Shown here piece after piece: positions 40,363-52,151 of a stretch of DNA of 64,000 nt. Position 1 is the first letter of the stretch; every line of letters begins with the position of its first letter. This stretch comes from Chitinilyticum piscinae (lineage in GTDB: Bacteria; Pseudomonadota; Gammaproteobacteria; Burkholderiales; Chitinibacteraceae). Position numbers and translations under genes: made by a program. The notes under the pieces are model-generated. The model saw nothing but the letters and a program-made list of their open reading frames with translations. It was not told the origin of the DNA and ran no database searches. The stretch covers positions 1 through 64,000 of the forward strand of contig NZ_JADFUA010000011.1 in NCBI RefSeq assembly GCF_015223195.1. The letters run 5' to 3'.

Positions 40363-41565
40363 ATGGAAGCGATACTGCTCGGTATTTATGCATTCTTTGT
40401 CTGGCTGATCTTTTTCAAATTCAAATGGCTGCCGTGGAACAAGGTCTCCATGGTTATCGTGATCACCATTCCAGTCGTGGGGATGGCCGCGCTGATTTTG
40501 ACACTCAACGTGGTCGCACCGTCGTCTGCGGATGTCCGCGTCATGAACAAGGTATTGCAGGTCGTACCGCAGGTTAAAGGACGGGTGATCGAGCTGGCGG
40601 TTGAGGGAAACCGCAGTTACCGCAAGGGGGATGTGCTACTGCGCATTGATCCTACCAATTACGAATTCGCAGTCAAGCAGCTCAAGGCAAAGCTCAAGGC
40701 CGATGATGCCAATGTGGCCAATGCCGAGGCCGCAGCTCGCCAGTTGAGTGCATCGGTCAAGGGCGCAGCGGGCAAGGTGTCGGCGGCCCAGGCAAAGCTT
40801 GATCTGGCTCGCAGGCGGCTACAGGAGCATCAGGAGCTGGTTGCCGCTGGTGCGGGAGACAAGTTTGCCCTGGAAGACGCACAAACACGCGTGCGCGAAC
40901 TGGAGGGTGAGCTGGTGAGTGCCCAGTCTGCTGAAACCCAAGCCAAAGAACAGCTGTCCGCGCGCAGCGAGGGAGAGTATGTTGCGATCGCTGCTGCCCG
41001 TGCTCAGCGCGCTGCGACTGAAAGCCAGCTGGCCAATGCACAATGGGAGCTGGATCAGACGGTTTACCGCGCACCAGCGAATGGCCGCGTGATCAATCTG
41101 CAGGTGCGCGTCGGAACGATGCTGGTGCCGATGCCCATGGCGCCGGCTTTCAGTTTTGTTGAAGACGAACAGGAGCTGATCGCCTTTTACCATCAGAACG
41201 AGCTATATGGTGTGGCGCCCGGTAACGAGGCGGAGGTGGCGCTGGAGACGCATCCGGGTGAAATCATCAAGGCCCGGGTGGATTCGGTGATCTGGGCACA
41301 ATCCCAGGGGGTTGTCCCGCAGGCTGGCATGTCGGCGACAGGTACTGGAGGAACTGTCCCTAACACCGGGCCTTATGCGCCGCCGCCCAATCGCTTCGCG
41401 GTCAAGCTCAAGCTGGATGGCCCATCCAAGACCTTGTCCTTGCCCACTGGCGCCATGGGGGCAGGAGCCATCTATACCGAGCATGTCGCGGCCATTCACA
41501 TCCTGCGCAAGGTCATCATGCGCGTGAACAGCAAGCTGAATTATCTCGTGCTCAAGCTGCACTAA
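40363..41565 (+). CDS. HlyD-family membrane fusion protein (YiaV/YibH-like)
   Basis: A 400-residue adaptor with two N-terminal helices (about residues 4-20 and 29-50) instead of one, as in the YiaV/YibH group. Then a lipoyl part (VVPQVKGRVIELAVEGNRSYRKGDVLLRIDP), a coiled-coil hairpin (about 105-225), and a second lipoyl/barrel region (YRAPANGRVINLQVRVGTML). Starts one base after the DUF3302 stop. It would bridge the periplasm to the outer-membrane channel encoded next; no ATPase, MFS or RND pump gene is in the cassette. Confidence 0.9.
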   Translation: MEAILLGIYAFFVWLIFFKFKWLPWNKVSMVIVITIPVVGMAALILTLNVVAPSSADVRVMNKVLQVVPQVKGRVIELAVEGNRSYRKGDVLLRIDPTNYEFAVKQLKAKLKADDANVANAEAAARQLSASVKGAAGKVSAAQAKLDLARRRLQEHQELVAAGAGDKFALEDAQTRVRELEGELVSAQSAETQAKEQLSARSEGEYVAIAAARAQRAATESQLANAQWELDQTVYRAPANGRVINLQVRVGTMLVPMPMAPAFSFVEDEQELIAFYHQNELYGVAPGNEAEVALETHPGEIIKARVDSVIWAQSQGVVPQAGMSATGTGGTVPNTGPYAPPPNRFAVKLKLDGPSKTLSLPTGAMGAGAIYTEHVAAIHILRKVIMRVNSKLNYLVLKLH

Positions 41566-41574
41566 GGAGAAATC

Positions 41575-42954
41575 ATGGATCATTCTCCTCAGAACAGGTG
41601 TTTGCTGGTGCTGATGCTGGTGGCCGGGCTTGCCGGCTGCGCCTTGCAGCCTGCTCCGGATGCCAGAGCTTTGCGTGAGCAGCAGTTGCCTGCGCTGCAA
41701 GCCAGCAGCACATGGTCGGCATCAGCGACGGCGGGGCAGGTCGCGGGCAACTGGTTGGCTGATTTTGCCGATCCGCAACTGCACGCACTGGTCGCCGAGG
41801 CCGTTGCCAATAACCGGGATCTCAAACTCGCGGCGGTTCGTGTCGAACAAGCGAGAGCGATGGTTTCGGTCAACGGCGGAACTCTTTATCCGGCAGTTGG
41901 TGTTGCGGGAGTCGTTGGCAAAAGTGATACCGAAGTCCTGTCGCTCTCTGCGAGCTGGGAAATTGACTTGTGGGGGCGAGTCCGTGCGCAGGCGCGCTCT
42001 GCCGAAAATGCACTGGCCGCCAGTGATGCAGACCGTCAGTGGGCCGAGCAGCTGATTGCAGCTGCTACGGCCAGGGCTTGGCTGGCACTGGTGCAGTACC
42101 AGCAGCTGGAGCTGCGGCAGCAAGCGCTAGTGGCTAGCCAAGAGTCCTTGCTGACAATTACTACCCAGCGTGTACATACCGGTATCAGTGCGGAAAGCGA
42201 GCTACTGGAAGTCAGTAGCGCCCTGCAGCAGCAGCGCGACAAGCTGGGACAGTTGCAATTGGCCCGGGTGCAGGCCGCGCAGGCTCTGGAAGTGCTGCTT
42301 GGACGCTATCCGGCCGGTGAGCTGACTGCTTCGGCGGCCCTGCCCGAGTTGCCTGCAGCACCTCCGGCGGGTTTGCCAGCCAATTTGCTGGAGCGTCGCC
42401 CCGACCTCGTGGCTGCGGAGCGCAGGGTCGCCGCTGCTTTTGATATGCAGCAATCCGCCGAAGCCGCGCGGTTGCCCAAGCTATCGATATCTGCGGCCAT
42501 TACCGATATCAGCAGTGATGTGTTTCTGCTTAATCAGGCCAATAACCCAATCAAGGGTATCAGCGCCAGCTTCCTTGCGCCTTTGTTTACCGGTGGACAG
42601 CTGCAGGGGCAAGCCGATTACTACTCAGCCGTACAGCAAGAGGCTGCACTTGCCTATGGCAGCAAGGCACTGGATGCACTACAGGAGGTAGAGTCCGGTT
42701 TACGGGCCGAGGAATCAATGAAGCGCCGTGCCGGCTATCTGCAGACTCAGCTGGCCGATCAGCGGCAACTGCTCGCCAGAGAGCAGGTACGGGTCAAGGT
42801 AGGGTCGCGGGATCCGCGCAGTGTACTGCAGCGTGAGCAAAGTGTTCTTGCTGCCGAGATGGGCTTGATCCAGCTACAGACCGCACAATTAAACCAGCGA
42901 ATTTCCCTGCTGCTCTCTCTTGGCGGTCGCTGGGATTCGTCACCTGCGGTGTAA
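41575..42954 (+). CDS. NodT-family outer membrane efflux lipoprotein
   Basis: A 459-residue channel of the NodT type. The lipoprotein signal ends LMLVAGLAGCALQP (cysteine near residue 22). WLADFADPQLHALVAEAVANNRDLKLAAVRVEQARA is the NodT N-terminal hallmark, and LLERRPDLVAAERRVAAA plus LFTGGQLQGQADYYSAVQQEA mark the second repeat. It starts 9 bases after the HlyD gene (AAGGAG before ATG) and ends the cassette at a bidirectional terminator. Confidence 0.92.
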   Translation: MDHSPQNRCLLVLMLVAGLAGCALQPAPDARALREQQLPALQASSTWSASATAGQVAGNWLADFADPQLHALVAEAVANNRDLKLAAVRVEQARAMVSVNGGTLYPAVGVAGVVGKSDTEVLSLSASWEIDLWGRVRAQARSAENALAASDADRQWAEQLIAAATARAWLALVQYQQLELRQQALVASQESLLTITTQRVHTGISAESELLEVSSALQQQRDKLGQLQLARVQAAQALEVLLGRYPAGELTASAALPELPAAPPAGLPANLLERRPDLVAAERRVAAAFDMQQSAEAARLPKLSISAAITDISSDVFLLNQANNPIKGISASFLAPLFTGGQLQGQADYYSAVQQEAALAYGSKALDALQEVESGLRAEESMKRRAGYLQTQLADQRQLLAREQVRVKVGSRDPRSVLQREQSVLAAEMGLIQLQTAQLNQRISLLLSLGGRWDSSPAV

Positions 42955-45875: not shown

Positions 45876-45910
45876 CAAAAACGACCGCAAGCCGATCCGG
45901 CTGCGGTCGT
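45876..45910 (-). terminator. Terminator after ntrX
   Basis: ACGACCGCA (45881-45889) pairs with TGCGGTCGT (45902-45910), with an inner GCCG/CGGC step and a bulged A. Five T follow on the minus strand. It separates ntrYX from trkAH. Confidence 0.87.
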
Positions 45911-45920
45911 GTTATTGGTG

Positions 45921-45969
45921 GGGTATGCTCTTGCAGATCTCGTGAATCAGGCATTAGAGGTATATACCC
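45921..45969. repeat. GTAT-N37-ATAC intergenic element, copy 6
   Basis: GTAT at 45923-45926 and ATAC at 45964-45967, 41 bp apart, with perfect 6-bp outer arms GGGTAT / ATACCC. It lies between the ntrX stop and the ntrX terminator, so it would be transcribed in the 3' end of the ntrYX message. Confidence 0.75.
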
Positions 45970-45977
45970 GGATGAGG

Positions 45978-47273
45978 TTATTCCTCTTCGTGGTTGCGAT
46001 TTTTCTTCTGCATCTGGATACCCAGCTGTTTCAGCTTGCGGTACAGATGGGTGCGCTCGAGGCCGATTTTTTCGGCAACCCGGCTCATGTTGCCGCGAGC
46101 CAGCTCGATTTGGCGTTCAAGATAGAATTTCTCGAACTGGTCACGCGCTTCGCGCAGCGGTAGATCCAGATCAAGCTGCGGCAGCGGCATGGTCGCCGCA
46201 GGCGCGGGCGCCGCATCGCAGCCCTGAGCCGGTCCGATCTGTGCCAGCAATCGACTGGCAGGCAACACGTCGATTTCCGGGGTACGGCAGGTCAGCGCCA
46301 GGCTTTTGACCACATTGGCCAGTTGATCCAGATTGCCCGGCCAGCTCTGCTGCTGCAGCAGTTGTAGAGCGGCCCTCGAGAAGTGGCGTTCCCCGCACTG
46401 GCTGGGGAGCTGGGCAAGCAGCTGGCTGGCCAGTTGCGGGATATCTTCCGCATGTTCGCGCAGGGCAGGAACAGGAACGATGATTTGGGTGAGCTGGCGC
46501 AGCAGCTCCGGGTCAAAAACCGGAACCAGTTGATCCAGCGTACGGCTGCTGACGCATACCAAACGTGTTTTCTGCTTTTCCAGTTTGGGCAGCATCGCCA
46601 GTAGTGCCTGCTGGGCCTTGCGTTCCAGCCAGGCAATGTCGCGCAGGAACAGTGTGCCACCTGCGGCTCGGGCGACCAGATCCTGCGGGGCGCTGGCGAG
46701 ATCGTCATTGGCATTCGGGGCAATGAACGGCCCGGCGCTGGGGGTAAGGTAGCGCGCGCACAGTTCATAACCGGCACCAGGTTCGCCGGTCAACAGGATG
46801 GGCAGAGGCTGCTTCCCGACCTGATCGAGTGTCTCCTGGAGCGCGGCAATCGCTGCGCTGTTACCGAGACTCTGCAGGCCCTGCGCTGCTTTTGGGGGGG
46901 CGATCTGTTGCGACATGGCACGTTTTACGACGGCCAGAAGTTTTTGCAGTCCGATTGGTTTCTCCAGAAAATCCAGAGCACCGATGCGCGTCGCTTCAAC
47001 GGCCGTATCAATGGTAGCGTGCCCGGACATCATGACCACCGGCATGGTGAGTTGGCCATTGCGTGACCACTCTTTCAGCAGGGTGACGCCGTCAGTATCG
47101 GGCATCCAGATGTCCAACAACACCATTTTCGGAATGGCTTGGTTGCGGTAACGGCGTGCGGCTTCGGCATTTTCAGCCTCTGCCACGCTATAACCTTCGT
47201 CTTGCAGAATTTCCGAGAGCAGTTCCCGGATGCCGATTTCATCATCGACAATCAGAATGTCCTGACTAGCCAC
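45978..47273 (-). CDS. ntrX: NtrX-type response regulator with degenerate AAA+ domain
   Basis: A 431-residue regulator. The receiver (residues 1-118) is intact, with phospho-acceptor D54 in VLLDIWMPDTDG. The central domain looks like a sigma-54 activator but its key parts are broken: Walker A reads GEPGAGYE (163-170, Tyr169 for Lys), Walker B reads GGTLFLRDI (205-213, Arg-Asp for Asp-Glu), and the GAFTGA loop and its flanks are missing. The C-terminal Fis-type helix-turn-helix (about 395-425, NMSRVAEKIGLERTHLYRKLKQL) is well kept. It should bind DNA but not hydrolyse ATP or open sigma-54 promoters, so it probably acts as an ordinary regulator. Follows ntrY directly. Confidence 0.88.
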   Translation of the reverse strand: MASQDILIVDDEIGIRELLSEILQDEGYSVAEAENAEAARRYRNQAIPKMVLLDIWMPDTDGVTLLKEWSRNGQLTMPVVMMSGHATIDTAVEATRIGALDFLEKPIGLQKLLAVVKRAMSQQIAPPKAAQGLQSLGNSAAIAALQETLDQVGKQPLPILLTGEPGAGYELCARYLTPSAGPFIAPNANDDLASAPQDLVARAAGGTLFLRDIAWLERKAQQALLAMLPKLEKQKTRLVCVSSRTLDQLVPVFDPELLRQLTQIIVPVPALREHAEDIPQLASQLLAQLPSQCGERHFSRAALQLLQQQSWPGNLDQLANVVKSLALTCRTPEIDVLPASRLLAQIGPAQGCDAAPAPAATMPLPQLDLDLPLREARDQFEKFYLERQIELARGNMSRVAEKIGLERTHLYRKLKQLGIQMQKKNRNHEEE

Positions 47274-49397
47274 TTAAACTTCCTCCCACAGCGGCAGTTC
47301 AATGCGCACAAACGCGCCACCTTCGGGCTGATTGCCCACCTGGATGCGTCCGTGATGTTCTTCAATGATTTTTTTCACGATGGCCAGTCCCAGCCCGGTT
47401 CCTTTGGTTTTTGTTGTGACGTAAGGCTCGAAAACCCGTGGCAGTAGCTCGCTGGAAAACCCAGGTCCATTGTCCGCAATACTGAAGCGCAGCCATTTTT
47501 CGTCTTTTTCGCAACGAATGCAAACTTTTGGGTCAGTACTTTCCCGAATGGCATCCTGCGCGTTCTGCAGCAAGTTGTGGATGACCTGGCGCAAATGCGT
47601 CGCATCACCTTTGATCGGAAGCGGTTCGGTGGTCAGCAGATGGCGTTCGATCGGTGCCGCTTCGTAGAGGACCAGCACTTCGCGCAGCAATTCGGCAAAG
47701 TCGAGTACCTGGCGTTTTCCCGAGGGTTTGCGCGCATAATCGCGGAAGGCATCCACCATCTGCTTGAGCGCGGCGACCTGCTTGACGATGGTCTGGGTGT
47801 TGCGGCTGAGGAGCTCTGCGGCCTGGGGTTCCAGTTTGTCGGCCAATTTGAGCTCCATCCGTTCGGCTGCGAGCTGAATCGGAGTGAGCGGGTTCTTGAT
47901 TTCATGCGCCAGCCGACGGGCAACCTCACCCCAGGCGGCATCGCGTTGTGCCGAAAGCAATTCAGTAATGTCGTCAAACACCACGACAAATCCACCCATG
48001 ATGGTGAAGTCTTCCGGCATTCCCGACAGACGCGTGCCATGCACCAGCATCACGCGCTTGTCGCCGTTGAGCTCAACTTGGCTTTGCCAGTGATCATTAT
48101 CAGAGAGTACCCCGCGCAGAATTTCAGCGCAGAAACCAGTCAGCACGGGATAGGGTTCATGCCAACGGCCAAGTGGCAGGCCTTCAACTTTGGCGGGGTC
48201 GAGGCCGAGGATGCGCAAGGCGCTGAGATTAGTAGATTGCAGCAGACAATCTTCATCGAACGAGAGTACACCTGCGGAAATCGAGCCAAGAATGGCTTCG
48301 ACATAGGCCTTGGCCGCAGCTTGTTCGGCCTGGTTCTGTTCCAGCTTGGCGCGTGTTTCCGCCAGTTGCCGAGTCATGCGATTGAAGGAGTGCGTCAGGA
48401 TGCCCAGTTCATCGCGGCTGACGACCGGTTGCTGCTGGCTGAAGTCTCCCTGGGCGACTGCGCGGGTTCCGGCGGCAAGCAGCGACAAAGGGGCTGCCAG
48501 TTTGTTGGACAGATACAGTGCCAGTACGAGTGCACCCAGCAGGCTGACGAGAAGTGCAATGGTGAGGGTGATGCTGAAAATGGTCTTCAATCCCTGCCGG
48601 GAGCTGGAGAGCTGTTTGTATTCACTGCGAACCTGAGTGACCAGCTCGGCATCCTGGGCCAGTTGTTGTGGCACGGGCTGTATCAGTTGCAGGTAGCGGC
48701 GCTTGTCTTCAAGGCTGGTGCCGGGAATGACGACCAGCACCCGCATGTTCAGGCCTTGTTCGGCGTTTTCCTCAAGCTTGCTAACCGGTTCGTAACTGGC
48801 TCGGCGCAGGCTGGCGCGGTCGGGTTGCTGGGGGAAAAGGCTGGCTTTTTCGTTACCGATATGGGCCCCGGTATTGCCCAGCTCATCGAAGATGGTAATT
48901 TCCTGAACACCCGTCTGATCGCGCAGCTTGTTGAGCCGTGGCAGCAGGGTGCTATCAGAGTTATCGTGGATGTCCCAGGCGATCACCTGTGCTTTGCGTG
49001 CCAGTTCGCCCTGCTGGAAGTCAATCGCGTTTTGTCCCAAGCTCCAGCCGCGATCAAGCGCCTTGTCCACTTTTACATCAAACCAGGTCTCGATCGAGCG
49101 GTTCAGGAACTGTACAGACAAGGTGTAGACCAGAGCACCCGGCAGCACGGCCACCAAGCCGAACATGAGCACCAGCCGCAGCATCAGTCGCGAGCCAAAG
49201 ACCTTGCTGCGTACCCGCTTGCGAAGTCGCCATAAATGACCGATTACCAGCGCAGCCATTCCGCCCAGTAACAATACATTCAGTCCCAGTACGAGATCGT
49301 AGTAATCGGAGAATGCCGAGGCATTGCCTGCTGCCAGTGCTAGAAGGAAGAGCAGCACGGAGCCCAGTGCCGCAAAAACAAACAGGAGGCGCTTCAT
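47274..49397 (-). CDS. ntrY: NtrY-type sensor histidine kinase
   Basis: A 707-residue membrane kinase. Three or more N-terminal helices (about residues 3-22, 31-52, 72-92) and one near 275-297 flank a periplasmic domain; then HAMP (about 297-350), PAS (about 360-465), HisKA with RLAHEIKNPLTPIQLAAERME (phospho-histidine near 482) and a complete ATPase domain (NLLQNAQDAI, DNGPGFSSELLPRVFEPY, TKGTGLGLAIVKKI). It should phosphorylate NtrX, whose gene begins at its end. The start overlaps the stop of the DUF4390 gene by four bases. Confidence 0.93.
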   Translation of the reverse strand: MKRLLFVFAALGSVLLFLLALAAGNASAFSDYYDLVLGLNVLLLGGMAALVIGHLWRLRKRVRSKVFGSRLMLRLVLMFGLVAVLPGALVYTLSVQFLNRSIETWFDVKVDKALDRGWSLGQNAIDFQQGELARKAQVIAWDIHDNSDSTLLPRLNKLRDQTGVQEITIFDELGNTGAHIGNEKASLFPQQPDRASLRRASYEPVSKLEENAEQGLNMRVLVVIPGTSLEDKRRYLQLIQPVPQQLAQDAELVTQVRSEYKQLSSSRQGLKTIFSITLTIALLVSLLGALVLALYLSNKLAAPLSLLAAGTRAVAQGDFSQQQPVVSRDELGILTHSFNRMTRQLAETRAKLEQNQAEQAAAKAYVEAILGSISAGVLSFDEDCLLQSTNLSALRILGLDPAKVEGLPLGRWHEPYPVLTGFCAEILRGVLSDNDHWQSQVELNGDKRVMLVHGTRLSGMPEDFTIMGGFVVVFDDITELLSAQRDAAWGEVARRLAHEIKNPLTPIQLAAERMELKLADKLEPQAAELLSRNTQTIVKQVAALKQMVDAFRDYARKPSGKRQVLDFAELLREVLVLYEAAPIERHLLTTEPLPIKGDATHLRQVIHNLLQNAQDAIRESTDPKVCIRCEKDEKWLRFSIADNGPGFSSELLPRVFEPYVTTKTKGTGLGLAIVKKIIEEHHGRIQVGNQPEGGAFVRIELPLWEEV

Positions 49398-50002
49398 TCG
49401 TCCTTCTCCACCGCCAGTTTGAGGTCTTGCCATTCCGGCTCGATGCGCCAGTCATTGTTGCCCAGCGCGCTGATCTGCATTGGTTTGGGCAATAAGTCAA
49501 AATCGAGAATCAGGCGTACCCGTCCGGCAAAGCTGTCGGGGTCGTCGGCCGCCGAGGTGTCTTTCAGGGCAACCCAGCCGCCGATGGTGCCAATGGCCTG
49601 CAGTGCTTCGTGCAGGCTGGCAAAGTTGCGTGTAATGCCATTGCTGGCGACGCGATACTGGCGGGTGAGGGGGTGATAGCTTAAGCGGTAGGTCGTGGTT
49701 GATGTGACTCCGAATCCGCTTTTTACTTGCTGGTACCAGGCCTGCAGGCGTGGCTTTTTAAGCTGGAACTGGTAGGTAAAGGGTAGTGATGTACCGTTCT
49801 GCAGCGCGGCCTCAGCACCGGGGGGGAGGGTAATACTGAAACGGGCACTGATTTCAATTTGGGCATTGCCCAGCCGGACTTCGGCGCGCTGCGGGGCAAT
49901 TTCCCCCGCCAGCGCAAATGCACCAAGCAATAGCAGCCCGAGCGCCAGCAGCAGGCTAGGCCTGCGTGGTCTCCTTGCTGAACAGTGCGTAGTAAAACCC
50001 AT
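49394..50002 (-). CDS. DUF4390 secreted protein
   Basis: A 202-residue protein, product of the gene between rsmB and ntrY. It begins MGFTTHCSARRPRRPSLLLALGLLLLGAFALAGE, a signal sequence, so it is exported. The body has ISARFSITLPPGAEAALQNGTSLPFTYQF and YRLSYHPLTRQYRVASNGITRNFASLHEALQAIGTIGGW, the DUF4390 pattern often found between rsmB and ntrY in betaproteobacteria. The start lies within the last 47 bases of rsmB and has no strong ribosome site, so coupling to rsmB is likely. Role unknown; the position suggests a link to NtrY sensing. Confidence 0.82.
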   Translation of the reverse strand: MGFTTHCSARRPRRPSLLLALGLLLLGAFALAGEIAPQRAEVRLGNAQIEISARFSITLPPGAEAALQNGTSLPFTYQFQLKKPRLQAWYQQVKSGFGVTSTTTYRLSYHPLTRQYRVASNGITRNFASLHEALQAIGTIGGWVALKDTSAADDPDSFAGRVRLILDFDLLPKPMQISALGNNDWRIEPEWQDLKLAVEKDE

Positions 50003-51239
50003 CGTGATCCGGTGACGGCAAAAGCTGTCCGGCGGTACCAGCCCACTCCGGGAGCGGCAGACGGCGCGCATCGGGATGGCGCACGGCGAATTCCGCTGCA
50101 GAGTCGGCGTTTTCCACCGGAAAAACGGAGCACGTAGCGTACAGGAGTTTCCCGCCCTCAGCCAGCAAGGGCCATAGCGCGTCGAGGATTTGTGCCTGCT
50201 GGGCTGCAAATCGCGCGAAATCCTCGGGGCGGCGCAGCCATTTGATATCCGGGTGGCGGCGTGTGACGCCGCTGGCCGAGCACGGCACGTCGGCCAGGAT
50301 GCGGTCGAAGGGTTTGCCATCCCACCATTGCTGCGGTTTGGCTGCATCGCCACAACGCAGGGTGGCGGAGAGTTGCAGGCGCTGCAGGTTATCGGCGACC
50401 CGCTGCAGGCGCTCAGGGTTGTTATCCAGTGCGGTCAGCTCGAGCCTGGCGAGCTCCAGCAAATGACCGGTCTTGCCACCCGGTGCGGCACAGGCATCGA
50501 GCACGCGTTGCCCATCCTGCACATCCAGTAGCAGGGCTGCGTACTGGGCGCCCAAATCCTGCACCGAAACCCAGCCATCCATGAAGTGCGGCAGGCTGTC
50601 CACGCTGACGGGTTTGTCCAGTTGCAGTGCTTGTTGCCCCAGTATTCGCGACTCTATGCCTCGCTCGGCCAGCAGTGCCTGATAGTCGGCAACGCTGGCG
50701 TGACGCAGATTGATTCGCAGGGTCATCGGCGGGTGGCTATTGTTCGCGTCGAGCACCGCCTGCCAGTCCTGCGGGTAAGACGTGCGCATCTGGGTAACCC
50801 ACCATTGCGGGTGGTTGTGACGGCCGGCAGGGGTTCGGCGCGCGGCGGCAAGCAATTCATCCTGCTGACGCAAGAAGTTGCGCAGCACGGCGTTGACCAG
50901 GCCTTTGGCTTGCCCCTTGCCGGTTTTTGCTGCCACCTTGACGGCGTGATCGACCACGGCATAACTGGCAGCCCGCGCGGCGTGCAACTGCTGCAGTGCG
51001 ATCAGCAGCAGAGCTTCGATTTCCACCTCTTTCAGGGGGGCTCGCAGCAGTTGCTTGAGCACCGCGCGCCACAATTCCAGCTCGCGCAGGGTGGAATAGC
51101 AGGCATCCTGAATGGCTCCGCGTTGCTGGGGTGTGAGCTGCGGATGGTGTTGCCACACGCGCGTCAGCGCGTCGGTGAGGTTCTGGCCGTCAAGGACGGC
51201 CAGCAGGGTCTGGCTGGCCAGTTTCTGGGTCTGGAACAT
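49956..51239 (-). CDS. rsmB: 16S rRNA m5C967 methyltransferase
   Basis: A 427-residue RsmB (Sun). The N-terminal NusB-like domain spans about residues 1-140. The methyltransferase has SAM motif VLDACAAPGGKTGHLLEL (about 245-262), motif IV DVPCSASGVTRRHPD and the catalytic-cysteine motif LLYATCSVFPVEN. It methylates C967 in 16S rRNA. Stands between fmt-htpX and ntrY; in many proteobacteria fmt-rsmB are adjacent, but here htpX separates them. Confidence 0.96.
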   Translation of the reverse strand: MFQTQKLASQTLLAVLDGQNLTDALTRVWQHHPQLTPQQRGAIQDACYSTLRELELWRAVLKQLLRAPLKEVEIEALLLIALQQLHAARAASYAVVDHAVKVAAKTGKGQAKGLVNAVLRNFLRQQDELLAAARRTPAGRHNHPQWWVTQMRTSYPQDWQAVLDANNSHPPMTLRINLRHASVADYQALLAERGIESRILGQQALQLDKPVSVDSLPHFMDGWVSVQDLGAQYAALLLDVQDGQRVLDACAAPGGKTGHLLELARLELTALDNNPERLQRVADNLQRLQLSATLRCGDAAKPQQWWDGKPFDRILADVPCSASGVTRRHPDIKWLRRPEDFARFAAQQAQILDALWPLLAEGGKLLYATCSVFPVENADSAAEFAVRHPDARRLPLPEWAGTAGQLLPSPDHDGFYYALFSKETTQA

Positions 51240-51305: not shown

Positions 51306-52151
51306 TTAGCGTGCCATGGCACGCAGGCGGGCAATTCGCTCGTCGGTGCGCGGGTGTGTGCGGAACAGGTCGGCCAAGCCGCCAGCGCCGGCGAGCGGAT
51401 TCATGATCATCATCTGGGCTGTTTCCGGATGTGCTTCGGCGGTATGCATGGGGATGCCGCGGGCGTAAGCCTCGATCTTCGCCAGCGCATCCGCTAGTGC
51501 ATGCGGGTCACCACTGATGCGGGCTCCTCCGGCGTCGGCTTCGAATTCGCGAGAGCGGGAGATGGCCATCTGGATCAGGCTGGCAGCAATTGGAGCCAGC
51601 AGGGCGAGAGCGATACCGGCAATCGGGTTCACCGGCTGGCCATTTTCATCGCGGCCCCCGAAAAACATGGCGAAGTTGGCCAATGCCGAAATTGCGCCGG
51701 CCATCGTGGCCGAGATGGTGGAAATCAGGATGTCACGGTGTTGTACGTGCGCCAATTCGTGAGCCATTACCCCGCGGATTTCCCGCGGGGTGAGCAGGCG
51801 CAGAATCCCGGTGGTGGCAGCCACTGCAGCATGTTCCGGGTTGCGTCCGGTGGCAAAGGCATTGGGCTGCGCTTCATCGATGATGTAAACCTTGGGCATG
51901 GGCAGGCCGGCTTTTTGCGCCAGCTCGGCGATCATGCCGTAAAACTCTGGGGCGCTGTGGGCATCAATCTGGCGTGCGTTATACATGCGCAGCACCATCT
52001 TGTCGGAGTTCCAGTAGGCAAAGACATTCATCCCTCCGGCAAACAGCAGCGCCAGCAGCATGCCGGCCTGACCGCCGACCATGCCGCCGATCAGTACAAA
52101 CAGCGCCGTGATGGCGGCCATCAGTAGCGCGGTTTTCATCAGATTGAACAT
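51306..52151 (-). CDS. htpX: Membrane zinc protease HtpX
   Basis: A 281-residue HtpX. Helices at about residues 5-20 and 25-42 precede the zinc site [10 protein letters not shown] (about 130-139); the third ligand glutamate is in [10 protein letters not shown] (about 205-214). Two further helices lie at 143-165 and 175-193. It degrades damaged inner-membrane proteins. Between fmt and rsmB on the same strand. Confidence 0.96.

Follow-up and report, generated by a model that had tools for sequence, protein, structure and literature searches.

The ntrX gene of the window, the 64,000-nt stretch of Chitinilyticum piscinae DNA that was analysed, encodes a response regulator whose receiver and Fis-type helix-turn-helix (HTH) are intact and whose AAA+ engine, judged from its motifs, cannot act as a normal ATPase. 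This inactivation is old and common to related bacteria, and the window gene is an ordinary example for its lineage. We consider it likely that the protein is a betaproteobacterial NtrX of the PlrR type in which the AAA+ domain is dead but retained as a scaffold, and that it works as an ATP-free, phosphorylation-switched regulator of sigma-70 promoters. The interest of the case lies in the graded series of related states and in the retention of the dead domain rather than in the single gene. The gene, its domains and its neighbours are placed as follows.

45978..47273 (-): ntrX (plrR-type) gene, 431 aa, with a GTG start right behind the ntrY stop
46926..47258 (-): receiver domain, residues 6-116, phosphoacceptor D54; Pfam Response_reg, 99.2 bits, invariant catalytic columns
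46461..46868 (-): pseudo-AAA+ core, residues 136-271; PF14532, 118.9 bits, and model match to the AAA+ of FlrC and NtrC1
46764..46787 (-): former Walker A, GEPGAGYE, with Tyr169 for Lys, from the alignment; codon TAT at 46767-46769
46689..46712 (-): approximate site of the missing loop 1 with GAFTGA; alignment gap against L001 and L002
46635..46652 (-): former Walker B, LFLRDI, with Arg211-Asp212 for Asp-Glu, from the alignment; codons CGC and GAC
46266..46460 (-): AAA+ lid, residues 272-336, with sensor II Arg changed to Asp; AAA_lid_14, 49.8 bits, and alignment
46023..46145 (-): Fis-type HTH, residues 377-417; HTH_8, 38.8 bits
47274..49397 (-): ntrY (plrS-type) histidine kinase; Pfam NtrY_N, HAMP, HisKA and HATPase_c
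49394..49962 (-): plrP-type DUF4390 gene, start uncertain; PF14334, 125 bits
49956..51239 (-): rsmB 16S rRNA methyltransferase; PF01189, 187.8 bits
44487..45890 (-): trkA; NF007032, 654 bits
43009..44478 (-): trkH; PF02386, 262.6 bits

The ntrX gene, its motifs and its neighbourhood

Pfam recognises Response_reg, Sigma54_activ_2 (PF14532), AAA_lid_14 and HTH_8 in the window protein, whose best NCBIfam family is the NtrX model NF051870, with a below-threshold score of 264.5 bits against a cut-off of 600. These domains, together with receiver residues D10, D11, E12, D54, S83 and K105, which are invariant in a 46-row alignment, confirm the intact receiver and HTH of the initial annotation, which had also placed the gene and its strand correctly. 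Motifs of the AAA+ domain were called against L001 and L002, two sigma-54 activators that this genome encodes in intact form. The codons and this alignment bear out what had been noticed from the sequence, namely Tyr169 in place of the Walker A Lys, Arg211-Asp212 in place of the Walker B Asp-Glu and a gap where the GAFTGA loop should be. In addition, both arginine fingers are gone, replaced by Asp and Gln (FDPELLRQL where the intact proteins have FREDLxxRL), and the sensor II Arg has become Asp (PGNLDQL instead of PGNVRQL). Thus, GAFTGA, the Walker A Lys and the Walker B Asp-Glu, by which a sigma-54 bacterial enhancer-binding protein is recognised, are all missing, and the AAA+ fold with its lid is present, as seen in the predicted model only.

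Could these losses be artefacts? A congener from a separate assembly, 94% identical, shows both GEPGAGYE and LFLRDI unchanged. The family, which we take to be Chitinibacteraceae, was represented by 43 genomes, each of which gave a match (64-100% identity), and in 30 aligned copies, drawn from 30 of these 43 genomes with the window's own among them, the Lys position is Tyr in the window and the congener and Phe in the other 28. The agreement of the congener and the 28 further copies makes a sequencing error, which the initial annotation had named as one possible refutation, very unlikely. Together with the open reading frame, it rules out a sequencing or assembly error or a pseudogene, an explanation whose probability we put close to nil.

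On the same strand, the genes follow the order rsmB, DUF4390, ntrY, ntrX, trkA, trkH, and the likely ATG of ntrY shares 4 bp (ATGA) with the stop of the DUF4390 (plrP) gene. The arrangement agrees with membership of the NtrX/PlrR group on two counts: a receiver and a Fis-type HTH adjoin an NtrY kinase, and rsmB and DUF4390 lie directly upstream of ntrY. The paired kinase is complete, as had been claimed, with NtrY_N, HAMP, HisKA and HATPase domains and the H-box HEIKNPL; an H-box of the form HE[IV][KR]NPL was present in 179 of the 180 NtrY proteins examined. Among the best 80 of at least 594 matching loci, those with enough sequence have DUF4390 and ntrY upstream of ntrX in 70 of 70 cases and rsmB in 65 of 66, with trkA and trkH downstream in 26 and 25 of 68, respectively. 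Further out, a peptidase M48 (HtpX-like) gene (51306-52151, minus strand) sits immediately upstream of rsmB, with which it shares its orientation. At the other end, positions 40363-42954 (plus strand) hold a weak HlyD-type match (24.6 bits, Pfam cut-off 30) followed by an outer membrane efflux protein (OEP, 91.6 bits); the two look like an efflux pair and converge on the trk genes.

Distribution and history of dead, loopless and domain-less NtrX

Two sets of relatives were compared. The first consisted of the window and its best 80 of at least 594 matching loci (81 rows), with records from Deefgea, Chitinolyticbacter, Iodobacter, Nitrosomonas, Thiobacillus, Snodgrassella, Alysiella and Neisseria among them; because these loci were picked by their match to the window protein, domain-less forms could hardly turn up in this set. 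Aligning relatives to follow the decay of the motifs, as the initial annotation had suggested, gave a uniform picture among these best matches: the Walker A Lys is present in 0 of 81 rows, the loop is a gap in 81 of 81, and Asp-Glu occupies both Walker B columns in a single row. The former Lys position is filled by Phe, Ala, Val, Ile, Pro, Met, His, Tyr or Ser, and protein length is 415-437 aa throughout. The position of the Walker B Glu (residue 212, 46638-46640) is still acidic, E or D, in 78 of the 81 rows; an acid kept there despite the lost neighbouring Asp and Lys likely has a structural role.

The second set consisted of 154 hand-chosen stretches downstream of DUF4390, a family for which searches were positive in 149 of 398 genomes of the phylum and in 245 of 369 genomes of the class. 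Sampled from these were 80 of the 149 phylum-search genomes, including all 32 of the window's order apart from its own, and 74 of the 245 class-search genomes, one per family, taken among the better-scoring matches listed. NtrX was found in 148 stretches; the six without it are L181, L184, L199, L209, L262 and L268, four of which are short contig ends. L181 and L184 are DUF4390 matches from the same class with no NtrX in the fetched 7.1-kb stretches, and from these two the DUF4390 family may occur in other contexts too. One further locus, L203 from another class of the phylum, was counted as deleted but is truncated at a contig end, and the trees leave it out.

Elsewhere in the phylum, in other classes, all 41 domain-bearing NtrX retain both the sensor II Arg and the Walker A Lys; 27 of them combine the Lys with Asp-Glu, and 15 show a GAFTGA-like loop, exact in 4. 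The NtrX of other orders of the class, presumably gammaproteobacteria (the window's order would include the betaproteobacteria, following GTDB practice, and the named best-match loci agree), are loopless in 74 of 74 cases among the better-scoring matches listed; the Lys survives in 62 of these, the first arginine finger in 67 and the sensor II Arg in 63, and only 17 have the Lys with Asp-Glu. In the window's order, 7 of 32 genomes carry a full-length dead domain, and in the other 25 the AAA+ domain is absent, leaving proteins of 218-289 residues, stop to stop, that retain the receiver, the HTH and the kinase. These graded living states suggest that the contact loop was lost first, then the ATPase, and the domain last, an order that appears when they are lined up without a rooted ancestral model. 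The expectation that NtrX proteins normally carry the AAA+ machinery, with which the initial annotation had started, was not supported in that form; the full sigma-54 machinery is not general among them, the loop being absent from the alphaproteobacterial NtrX of Brucella and Caulobacter and from all 74 listed proteins of other orders. The window NtrX is one member of a known family of regulators, one that is slowly shrinking. In another class (L211-L228, family code f40), NtrX genes beside DUF4390 mostly encode GAFTGA, GAFPGA, GAFAGA, GAFSGA or GAFVGA loops, and are possibly near the ancestral sigma-54-competent state.

A midpoint-rooted tree of 179 rows was built from receiver, HTH and NtrY columns, with the AAA+ columns omitted, and took 32 of the 81 first-set rows (the window and 31 of the 80 named loci) plus second-set rows. 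The window NtrX clusters with named betaproteobacterial NtrX, and 64 dead or deleted rows, made up of the window, the 31 named loci and 32 genomes of the window's order, form one clade with a local support of 100. On this midpoint-rooted tree, inactivation maps to the base of the betaproteobacterial NtrX clade, not to a local rewiring in this organism or in the Neisseriales as first proposed. Absence of the domain required two changes on both trees recovered, the second of which carries a long-branch warning; however, a one-change tree scored higher and was not rejected (p-AU 0.661), so two separate deletions are not claimed. Two rows stand apart. L176 (G364:C13), a 218-residue domain-less NtrX, lies near dead-domain rows and away from the other 24 domain-less proteins; it is a possible separate deletion, a single origin being also compatible with the data. 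L286 (G689), from another order of the class, has lost the Walker A Lys, the first arginine finger and the sensor II Arg, and branches among other orders, outside the betaproteobacterial clade; it may have been inactivated independently, a single case among the 74 proteins of that sample. Apparent NtrY-NtrX fusions suggested by very long frames (L186, L195, L237, L244, L283, L286 and L291) were discarded; none of the seven has an H-box, which points to read-through upstream of the receiver.

Probable mode of action and retention of the dead domain

Loss of rpoN as the cause of the inactivation was not borne out. The initial annotation had asked whether the genome keeps rpoN, and it does, along with three GAFTGA activators, one of which is NtrC by its model (703 bits against a cut-off of 558.6); sigma-54 loss therefore does not explain the dead domain. 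Of 40 related genomes, 35 gave a match to rpoN, namely all 8 from the family, all 7 from the order that carry the dead domain and 20 of the 25 from the order that lack the domain (for the order, 27 of the 32 genomes sampled). Since the five genomes lacking it are all domain-less, a weak link within that group remains conceivable. Living species display apparent steps from a sigma-54 AAA+ activator to a plain response regulator, and the sigma factor mostly stayed.

Because 25 of the 32 sampled genomes of the order naturally do without the domain and yet retain receiver, HTH and kinase, the ATPase is apparently not needed. Regulation without the AAA+ machinery and sigma-54, as the initial annotation had it, is the sensible reading of the motifs. 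GAFTGA-less activators acting at sigma-70 promoters are on record in passages of PMC10274813, and by analogy the window NtrX would act at promoters of this kind. In the mechanism that we favour, NtrY would phosphorylate D54 and would itself probably be tuned by the periplasmic DUF4390 protein (PlrP), on the analogy of Bordetella, for which PMC13001219 proposes PlrP as an inhibitor of the phosphatase activity of PlrS. Phosphorylation of D54 would alter dimerisation and DNA binding via the Fis-type HTH, and sigma-70 promoters would be activated or repressed by touching or blocking RNA polymerase, with neither ATP hydrolysis nor sigma-54 contact taking part in the regulation step. The pseudo-AAA+ domain would sit between receiver and HTH as a spacer and as a module for dimerisation or relay.

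The GCA-N9-TGC consensus proposed for alphaproteobacterial NtrX in the available part of PMC7240162 occurs 51 times in the window against 52.6 expected, which is chance level, and a scan for sigma-70-like promoters across 45900-50100 found 0 against 1.4 expected; such scans carry little weight on the question of sigma-70 regulation. Regulators of the dead-domain kind are active, judging by the NtrX effects in Neisseria: passages of PMC9409073 and PMC12697260 place respiratory genes under NtrX control in N. gonorrhoeae, and an unusual cell morphology is described for a meningococcal ntrX deletion in an excerpt of PMC8445170. Four NtrX classes claimed in the accessible part of PMC12697260 were untraceable, its cited reference 29 being a MisR paper.

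Why has a dead domain been kept? The predicted core is confident, with a mean pLDDT of 83-95 per 10-residue block across residues 131-270, and the core-plus-lid part of the model fits FlrC at 2.2 A over 210 residues and NtrC1 at 2.4 A over 211; a pTM of 0.62 leaves the relative placement of the domains uncertain in the model. In eight genera of the family, within-genus dN/dS spans 0.018-0.173 in the core and 0.014-0.180 in the lid, against 0-0.039 in the receiver and 0-0.048 in the HTH (pairwise Nei-Gojobori counts on 30 copies, for the eight genera with at least two; pairs are not independent, and dS reaches 2.3 in the core). In these eight genera, purifying selection acts on the dead core. 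Confident fold and low dN/dS indicate that the domain is kept, less strictly than the receiver and the HTH.

This evidence bears unequally on the other explanations. That the domain is a functionless, decaying remnant heading for deletion would account for the free variation at the former Lys position (nine residue types in 81 rows) and for its absence from 25 of the 32 genomes sampled in the order, but we find it improbable in view of a steady length of 415-437 aa over the 81 rows, a dN/dS far under 1 in all eight genera, with receiver and HTH tighter still, and the confident core. Still less credible, indeed very hard to sustain, is an ATP-dependent sigma-54 activator working through unconventional residues: the genome has rpoN and 78 of 81 rows still have an acid where the Walker B Glu would be, yet the Walker A Lys, the Walker B Asp, GAFTGA, both arginine fingers and the sensor II Arg are all lost.

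A more serious, though minority, possibility is that the domain has been repurposed to bind a partner protein or a small ligand (e.g. c-di-GMP), giving the regulator two signals to combine. The low dN/dS is also compatible with a role that goes further than a scaffold, and the pseudo-AAA+ domain may bind a nucleotide or another ligand without the Walker Lys. VpsR and FleQ bind c-di-GMP, and VpsR is a structural match of the model (7v2b_A, Z 22.3, 316 residues, whole-chain rmsd 21.6 A), described in passages of PMC10274813 as a GAFTGA-less regulator of sigma-70 promoters. Purifying selection on the core in eight genera (dN/dS 0.018-0.173) speaks for such a new role as well. Against it, 46 aligned rows of core and lid (136-336) hold only five invariant residues (G166, Q221, P269, W311 and L318), none of them charged, and the domain is missing in other lineages of the window's order. 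We prefer the scaffold. A bolder version, which we put forward only tentatively, is that in betaproteobacterial NtrX the motor became a second input or polymerase-contact module, kept by selection (eight genera) and dropped only where that input was lost, the beta clade then representing the whole path from a sigma-54 motor to a two-domain regulator.

Comparison with known systems

Among solved chains, only PDB 3co5, which we take to be Neisseria gonorrhoeae NtrX, matched the window core fragment at E 1e-6 or better (62.5 bits). Solved as an isolated domain, it reads GEAGSPFE and VGD at Walker A and B and is dead like that of the window; a literature search on the PDB code returned unrelated papers only. 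The best full-length match in both sequence and fold is Brucella NtrX (PDB 5m7n, 5m7o, 5m7p), where GAFTGA is absent, as in the window; unlike the window protein, it keeps the Walker A Lys and the Walker B Asp-Glu, and was solved with ATP and with ADP. According to the available passages of PMC10274813, Caulobacter NtrX is also without GAFTGA, and Rhodobacter capsulatus NtrC, Caulobacter NtrC and VpsR share with the window protein the lack of the loop 1 motif and serve sigma-70 promoters; ATP binding is relevant in R. capsulatus NtrC, and binding and hydrolysis in Caulobacter NtrC, whereas the ATP site of the window NtrX is gone. No description of a dead-domain intermediate was found in the open-access literature searched, mostly by listings and passages.

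The closest counterpart is the PlrR/PlrSR (NtrYX) system of Bordetella, in which, as far as the accessible portion of PMC13001219 goes, the six-gene order rsmB-plrP-plrS-plrR-trkA-trkH, the 4-bp plrP/plrS overlap and a HEIKN kinase are the same as in the window; plrR and trkA overlap by 4 bp there, whereas the window ntrX and trkA do not overlap. The same portion states that betaproteobacterial NtrX lack the AAA+ domain, which in the window is present but dead. Our results refine this printed statement, many of these proteins keeping the domain in a dead form, and regulon predictions would go astray if sigma-54 dependence were assigned to such genes by their domain name alone.
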